Positions 18,904-32,714 of a DNA stretch of 35,563 nucleotides are shown here, in pieces. The stretch comes from Christensenellaceae bacterium. Lineage in GTDB: Bacteria; Bacillota; Clostridia; Christensenellales; DTU072. Under the pieces are notes generated by a model. That model ran no database searches, was not told the DNA's origin, and saw only the letters and a list, made by a program, of their open reading frames with translations. Position 1 is the first letter of the stretch. Each line of letters opens with the position of its first letter. A program made the translations under genes and the position numbers. The stretch is taken from the NCBI GenBank assembly GCA_031278175.1, contig JAITLB010000257.1, positions 1 to 35,563 of the forward strand. The letters run 5' to 3'.

Positions 18904-19122
18904 TTAACTTGTGTTTTAGCATTAAGTTATTTGTAGAACACAATTAGCAAAATCTGTCGCAACGGATGAATCGTGAGTCACTATGACCACGAAACGCTAC
19001 GGTGGGCTACATCGAATGTAAAGCTCGCGGACGCATGATAAGACCCAACGAAATCTTTAAACGTTAGGCAATGTGGAAGAAGCGAGAACTATATCTTGAA
19101 GTTATATACGGAGAGTTAAAGA
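18904..19122 (+). promoter_or_regulatory. structured rplC-rplD intergenic RNA (candidate r-protein leader / cis-regulator)
   Basis: Consecutive hairpins: TTGTGTT/AACACAA (18909/18937); ATCTGT-CGCA-ACGGAT (18952-18967); TCGTG-a-GTCA-cta-TGAC-CACGA (18971-18992); GTGGGC-TACAT-cga-ATGTA-aa-GCTCGC (about 19003-19028); CCAACG/CGTTaGG (about 19045-19068). No ORF of useful length. Confidence 0.6.
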
Positions 19123-31799: not shown

Positions 31800-32090
31800 T
31801 TTTAGACAACCACAAAGTGTGTTTTATTAAGACAGTGTTTGCGTGGTTAAGAGAAATGAATATAAAGCGTTTAACTAGCAAGTTCACTTAGAATGATTTG
31901 TCTGTGTTAAAGATCACAACTTCAATTTCTCATTAACTTGAAGTTTAAAGATAAATACCAAAATTTTACCTGAGGTACAACGATAAGACTAGTGAAATCT
32001 ATAGCACTAGTGAAGTTGGAAAAACAGGAGTCGCAGCTCAAAGATGCCAATAGAACTTTGAGCCAAAATAAGGAAACAGGATATTAAAAT
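31800..32090 (+). promoter_or_regulatory. structured rpsK-rpsD intergenic RNA (candidate S4/rpsD leader)
   Basis: Three strong hairpins: AACTTCAA/TTGAAGTT (31918/31938), ACTAGTG/CACTAGT (31988/32005), GCTCAAAG/CTTTGAGC (32036/32056). rpsD autoregulatory leaders are established in Firmicutes. Confidence 0.65.
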
Positions 32091-32714
32091 ATGGCAAAAT
32101 ATACCGGACCCGTTTGCAAATTATGCAGAAGAGAGGGAGCGAAATTATTTTTAAAAGGCGATAGATGCTACGGACGCCGTTGCGCAATGGAAGGCAGTGC
32201 AATTCCACCTGGACAGCATGGTGGTGCAAGAAAGAAAGCTACTCCTTATAGTGTGCAGTTGCGAGAAAAGCAAAAAGCAAAGAGAGCTTATGGACTGCTA
32301 GAGAAGCAATTTCATATGTACTATGAGAAAGCCGAGAAAATGCGTGGAATAACAGGTGAGAACATGTTTGTTCTTATTGAACGCCGACTAGACAATGTCG
32401 TATATCGCATGGGCATAGGTTCTTCGCGTGCACAGTCAAGGCAAATTGTCAATCACAGACATATCACAGTAAATGGTAACACAGTTGACATTCCTTCTTA
32501 TTTAGTTAAAACAGGCGATATCATTGCTATAAAGGAAACTAAAAGGGAAAAACCCATATTCGTTGAATTGAAAGGCATGAAGCTGAACAATTTACCTAAA
32601 TGGTTGACATTCGACACCACAACATTGAGTGGACAAATTATTGCTTTACCAACTCGCGCAGATTTGGATTTGACTATCTCAGAGCACATGATAGTTGAGT
32701 TGTACTCAAAATAA
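32091..32714 (+). CDS. rpsD: 30S ribosomal protein S4
   Basis: [27 protein letters not shown]...[32 protein letters not shown]. Confidence 0.98.

Follow-up and report, generated by a model that had tools for sequence, protein, structure and literature searches.

The question raised by this locus is what kind of RNA occupies the gap between rplC and rplD, and why a similar one precedes rpsD. In the window, which is positions 1–35,563 of contig JAITLB010000257.1 from the 2.68 Mb genome of a Christensenellaceae bacterium (G000), an earlier note had described a repeated hairpin with a conserved loop in both gaps and proposed a structural RNA shared by ribosomal protein genes, possibly with a common protein ligand.

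The element upstream of rplD and rpsD

Both hairpins are located where they had been placed, with the sequence GATAAGAC...GAAATCT at 19037–19056 and 31982–32000, and a search for the exact pattern GATAAGACN{3,12}GAAATCT revealed four occurrences in G000 versus none when read backwards, which is far above chance; the other two copies are situated upstream of a GGGtGRT-family gene and a class II glutamine amidotransferase gene. The proposed stem is imperfect in the rplD copy, with a C19046/A19066 mismatch within CCCAACG/CGTTAGG. The reported interval, 19037–19081, is real but partial, the hairpins being the outer arm of an RNA of ~95 nt with three helices: P1, the composite arm P2-k-turn-P3-P4, and stem 4. 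Outside the interval lie the 5' half of P3 and P2 (CTCGC 19024/GCGAG 19082 for rplD and CCTG 31969/CAGG 32025 for rpsD). Across the first four copies P2 reads CTCGC/GCGAG, CCTG/CAGG, CTCGG/CTGGG and CCCA/TGGG, and it encloses an asymmetric purine loop, P3, a conserved UAAGAC and the reported P4 hairpin. Aligning further copies revealed P1 (CUACGG...CCGGAAGUUA), a hairpin at the 5' end, and stem 4 is a separate hairpin immediately 3' of the element, most leaders folding stably at this place (mean z -1.9, 46 leaders).

The rplD leader element, P1 and core together, covers 18996–19090 on the forward strand, on which all features of the window given here lie, and is matched by three covariance models: R1, built from the first four copies (E 2e-19), R2, trained on leaders only (E 7e-22), and R3 (E 9.1e-10), the last two performing better than R1. 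It begins with the P1 hairpin followed by a GAAUGU segment (18996–19021), with covarying pairs in alignments A5 and A8, continues with the 5' strand of P2 (CTCGC, 19024–19028, partner 19082–19086) and then, at 19030–19036, with the GA of a tandem G.A (19030–19031) and the 5' strand of P3 (19032–19036). In A5, a MAFFT alignment of 19 copies, these two tandem G.A positions are G in 19 and A in 18 of the 19. The reported motif GATAAGAC (19037–19081) holds P4 (19044–19050/19062–19068), the 3' strand of P3 (19071–19075), the k-turn loop and a second GA (19079–19080); it is followed by the 3' strand of P2, GCGAG, and then AA (19082–19088), and by stem 4 (P5) with TATAT/ATATA at 19090–19108, which is weak in this copy (z 0.6). 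The gene rplD, encoding L4 (19123–19746, PF00573 E 3e-71), starts ~32 nt past the element, which fills the rplC-rplD gap. The rpsD leader element (31966–32030, R1 E 1.4e-15, R2 E 5e-5) contains P2 (31969–31972/32025–32028), P3 (31978–31981/32015–32018) and P4 (31989–31994/32005–32010) but is degenerate, P1 not being seen and the tandem G.A being lost; its stem 4 (P5), GCTCAAAG...CTTTGAGC at 32036–32063, is stable (z -3.5), and rpsD, encoding S4 (32091–32714, PF00163 and PF01479), starts ~57 nt past the element. Other copies, L025–L029, are weak.

Covariation was evaluated against shuffled alignments and against structures in which the pairing partners were slid. For the first four copies, aligned with MAFFT, the proportion of paired cells is 87%, versus 78% when shuffled and 21–42% with partners slid. 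With 19 copies there are 46 cells in which both sides change, versus 19 when shuffled, a value that none of 500 shuffles reached, and slid structures score 0.06–0.07 versus 0.30 observed, about a fifth. The four tandem G.A columns are kept in 18–19 of 19 leaders and in 26–27 of 27 R3 matches. Folding single copies by minimum energy did not yield the consensus structure, and no terminator-like 3' part was noticed in the leaders. The covariation that had been suspected from two hairpins is thus borne out by alignment and by both controls, and that the element is a structured, conserved RNA is regarded as practically certain.

Target genes and sister genomes

The individual models give 19–27 matches in G000 (R1: 21 copies at E<=1e-3), and when R1, R2 and R3 are pooled at E<=0.002 the number of copies is 25. 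All strong copies are in sense orientation with a coding sequence starting about 24–71 nt downstream, whereas a rough estimate of our own gives ~2% of strand positions this close before a sense start, so the placement in leaders is not due to chance; that it goes with a function is very probable. The element does precede several ribosomal protein genes, as had been suggested (rplD, rpsD, rplJ and rplT), but a role specific to these genes does not agree with the remaining list, which includes rho, prmA, lepB (signal peptidase), glgA, glgC, hprK, V-ATPase subunit A, an FGGY kinase, a PTS EIIC, the glutamine amidotransferase, DegV, an FAD oxidoreductase, a SIS protein, lipoproteins and, side by side, the genes of a NifU-like and a GGGtGRT protein. 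No one theme is obvious among the target genes.

Two congeneric genomes, G001 (assembly 91% complete) and G002 (89%), contain 7 and ~15 leaders, respectively, when searched with R2 and R3. Most of these are of a second type, subtype B, which shares the P1/P2/P3 core and differs in the distal arm. In G000, subtype-B leaders are found at L176:1332–1428 and L177:1157–1247, before V-ATPase subunit A and HPr kinase (hprK), so that the two distal-arm subtypes occur together in a single genome. Six orthologous genes carry leaders in both G001 and G002 (GH2, ROK kinase, trigger factor, glycogen phosphorylase (glgP) and two without clear family), and an FAD oxidoreductase gene shared by G000 and G002 is preceded by a leader in both. 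Within orthologous leader pairs compensatory changes are found in P2, for example CCAU/AUGG to CCAC/GUGG. In many of the G001 and G002 leaders the preceding gene ends only 6–80 nt upstream of the element, which thus often fills the intercistronic gap. The positions at rplD and rpsD are absent from the matches in the two sister genomes, so the conservation at these two gaps on which the earlier note had made its proposal depend is not seen there, and it is at other genes that conservation appears.

Across 97 relatives R1 gave one weak match. A DNA pattern scan found a match in the sister genome Christensenellaceae bacterium Cc175_bin14 (JAIRKT01) and one in Prevotella that is probably due to chance; the first pattern match among relatives, in G033 (L005), is located inside a coding region and was discarded as chance.

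Relationship to TnpB omega-RNA

Cas12 and its guides descend from TnpB and its omega-RNA. Rfam scans assign no family to the leaders, in line with the lack of a recognised named motif at the outset. Outside the genus the models built from leaders match almost only omega-RNA (reRNA) at the 3' ends of tnpB genes. R2 also matches G017 and G022 at the omega-RNA region of TnpB elements: a tnpB transposon present in many copies is hit at its right ends, and a second tnpB gene at its end. The many-copy element in these genomes (L075, L058, L074, L081) is of IS605 type with an identical right end, several copies being located at contig ends. R2 was also run on 14 more tnpB loci (12 from named records) and matched two of them, in a Clostridioides phage and an Enterocloster phage, 10 and 31 nt after the tnpB stop codon (E 8.9e-9 and 1.6e-4), and nowhere else in these loci was there a match at E < 1; the leaders thus resemble the omega-RNAs of some TnpB clades and not all. 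Run on 297 genomes of the order, R3 matched five places outside the genus, spread over just three genomes; three of these places start 8–12 nt after tnpB stops, one overlaps the end of tnpB and one looks like a solo end; R2 alone recovers all five. In a joint alignment of leaders and TnpB RNAs 93.8% of cells pair, with a covariation of 0.62 versus 0.17 when shuffled and <=0.15 when slid.

The ISDra2 omega-RNA seen by cryo-EM has, in this order, a hairpin region with a pseudoknot strand, a stem 2 in which a G.A pair precedes C:G, stem 3a/3b, of which 3b is dispensable, stem 4 and the guide (PMC10097598). The leaders show the parts from the hairpin through stems 2 and 3 to stem 4 in the same order: P1 and the GAAUGU segment are the counterpart of the omega-RNA hairpin and pseudoknot 5' strand (GGAAG/GGGAU), P2 is the counterpart of stem 2, and the first-noted block GAUAAGAC has its equivalent in the UAAGAC that several clostridial omega-RNAs carry in their distal arm. 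Unlike omega-RNAs, which are encoded at or just after the tnpB 3' end, they are not beside tnpB but in the 5' leaders of many unrelated protein genes. A GUUCAA-like 3' pseudoknot strand, whose pairing would be short and non-canonical, is not recognisable by eye in most leaders, and what lies 3' of stem 4 are the ribosome-binding site and start codon of the gene itself. Since its own Shine-Dalgarno region follows stem 4, the guide function appears to be lost and use of the leaders as guides has probably ended.

The reRNA of IS607-type TnpB is known as RAGATH-18, and 64% of RAGATH-18 RNAs adjoin an IS607 TnpB (PMC11061315). Its core contains a k-turn with tandem G.A (PMC8191799), and the leaders share both the core CCUG..GGA // GAUGAAGCAGGAA with its k-turn and the tandem G.A. 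The RAGATH-18 model (RF03064) gave no match on the leaders, even at E<=1 in short stretches, and the Rfam gathering score of 44.9 was not reached, but the clostridial phage omega-RNA found by the leader model (L131:2611–2692) gives a weak RF03064 score at the same place. This phage RNA also weakly matches the Enterococcus sRNA Ref70, and scoring with both suggests that Ref70 may be an omega-RNA too. From these comparisons of sequence and structure we hold with high confidence that the leaders are homologous to TnpB omega-RNA, and homology together with leader placement is well supported.

A candidate protein partner and the possible role of the leaders

By profile searches, G000 has one TnpB relative only, a protein of 259 aa on contig C183 which aligns to residues 6–261 of ISDra2 TnpB (E about 3e-23) and stops at that point. 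It is followed by the gene lepA after ~180 nt, so the nuclease and zinc-ribbon half is absent. The protein keeps WED, REC and the RuvC alpha1/alpha2 region. In ISDra2 TnpB, WED and the RuvC alpha1/alpha2 region hold the scaffold, and Y52, S56, K76, F77 and Q80 read the target-adjacent motif (PMC10097598). All five of the latter are changed in the C183 protein (Y52H, S56R, K76R, F77S, Q80Y), including Y52 and Q80, which are kept in nearly all TnpBs compared; R231 is kept, with R232K and Q227R nearby. RuvC is inactivated, the GIDLGI motif being lost and the E278 and D361 regions absent. With the scaffold-binding half kept, the target-motif residues changed and the nuclease half gone, the C183 protein looks DNA-blind, like an omega-RNA binder unable to read or cut DNA, and it may tentatively be proposed as the partner of the leaders.

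An R2 search of the locus found no leader-type element beside the C183 gene, a protein-level scan of genome contigs detected no relatives or ortholog, profile searches of G001 and G002 found no TnpB relative although both carry leaders, and no intact tnpB was found in the genus. In G001 and G002 the partner may be missing from the assemblies, diverged beyond detection or another protein, and the C183 gene could be a decaying remnant. G002 contains, on contig C2 (L102:1498–1695) between two ABC transporter genes, a 65-aa ORF which resembles only the RuvC alpha1/alpha2 segment of TnpB (PF01385 E 7e-4); it may encode a very small omega-RNA binder, or the resemblance may come from a coiled coil by chance. 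The related genome G003 has ~28 TnpB zinc-ribbon fragments, most with in-frame stop codons, a large tnpB graveyard.

On balance we lean towards the omega-RNA scaffold having been exapted as a cis-acting 5' leader, with the C183 protein as its likely partner in this species. A scaffold-binding protein would recognise the scaffold within the mRNA and bind beside the ribosome-binding site, as stem 4 ends ~20–28 nt before the AUG, altering translation or mRNA processing; alternatively, the folded RNA itself would set access to the ribosome-binding site or transcript processing. The direction of the effect is not readable from sequence. The outcome would be co-regulation of a set of translation and carbon-metabolism genes, and the C183 protein would have given up the guide function and kept its grip on RNA alone. 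A genome-wide post-transcriptional regulon, in which scaffold leaders of housekeeping genes are read by a TnpB descendant devoid of DNA recognition and cleavage, is conceivable, if still somewhat doubtful. As to a likely origin, known RAGATH-18 TnpB TAMs include AGGAG and GAGGG (PMC11061315), and since such AG-rich motifs resemble Shine-Dalgarno sites, TnpB transposons inserting at them would leave a sense scaffold just before start codons.

The leaders could also act without TnpB, through the RNA alone (stabilising the mRNA, insulating the ribosome-binding site or sensing a ligand) or through a host protein such as a k-turn binder, with the C183 protein as an unrelated remnant. This agrees with the occurrence of leaders in G001 and G002, where TnpB is undetected, and with a k-turn module that is nearly invariant in the leaders, k-turns being bound by L7Ae-type proteins (PMC8191799), but it leaves aside that the copy-richest genome has a lone, apparently DNA-blind TnpB with the scaffold-binding half, and that the parts contacted by TnpB (P1 region, stem 2, stem 4) are kept; we consider it rather unlikely. 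The absence from the C183 protein of the RuvC/TNB half, together with its altered target-motif residues, bears on the idea that the leaders are still guide RNAs whose sequence 3' of stem 4 directs a dead TnpB to DNA. TldRs set a precedent for this (PMC13418256) and the scaffold is intact, but as no GUUCAA-type end is recognisable after stem 4, where the gene's ribosome-binding site and start codon lie, it is improbable.

That the leaders are non-functional ends of decayed IS605/IS607 elements would fit the same AG-rich TAMs (PMC11061315), which would put sense ends before start codons, but diverged copies maintain their pairing through compensatory change, six leaders are found at orthologous genes in two species and no intact tnpB is seen in the genus, making it very improbable. 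Binding by L4, S4 or another ribosomal protein, the ligand first suggested, drew on the copies at rplD, rpsD, rplJ and rplT; as most copies are at unrelated genes rather than confined to the operons of a bound ribosomal protein, and the relatives of the element are TnpB omega-RNAs, its probability is close to negligible. The first candidates, namely a riboswitch, an element of CsrA type and a self-cleaving RNA, became less likely in view of the target genes and of the matches at TnpB loci.

An incomplete search of the literature revealed no description of omega-RNA scaffolds in the role of mRNA leaders, and to our knowledge the TnpB domestications described (CRISPR-Cas12, TldR) keep RNA-guided DNA targeting. 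If the exaptation is true, the scaffold itself would have become a cis-regulatory leader of mRNAs on dozens of occasions. This would add a new kind of element to gene control and a new source to the regulatory RNAs of bacteria, and a single genome would offer >20 leaders for testing together with a definite protein candidate. Homology and leader placement alone would surprise specialists in regulatory RNA and mobile elements. Like riboswitches and ribosomal protein leaders, the element is a structured 5'-UTR RNA repeated at several genes, but it is homologous to a transposon guide-RNA scaffold and its targets share no evident ligand. The closest protein parallel is with TldRs, nuclease-dead TnpBs which use omega-RNA-type guides as transcription factors (PMC13418256), in that the C183 protein too would be a domesticated, nuclease-inactive TnpB in a host-gene setting. 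TldRs, however, keep DNA targeting and an adjacent guide RNA, whereas the C183 protein lacks the RuvC/TNB half, has altered TAM-reading residues, is of half length and lacks an omega-RNA of its own, the scaffolds being ~25 dispersed copies in mRNA leaders.
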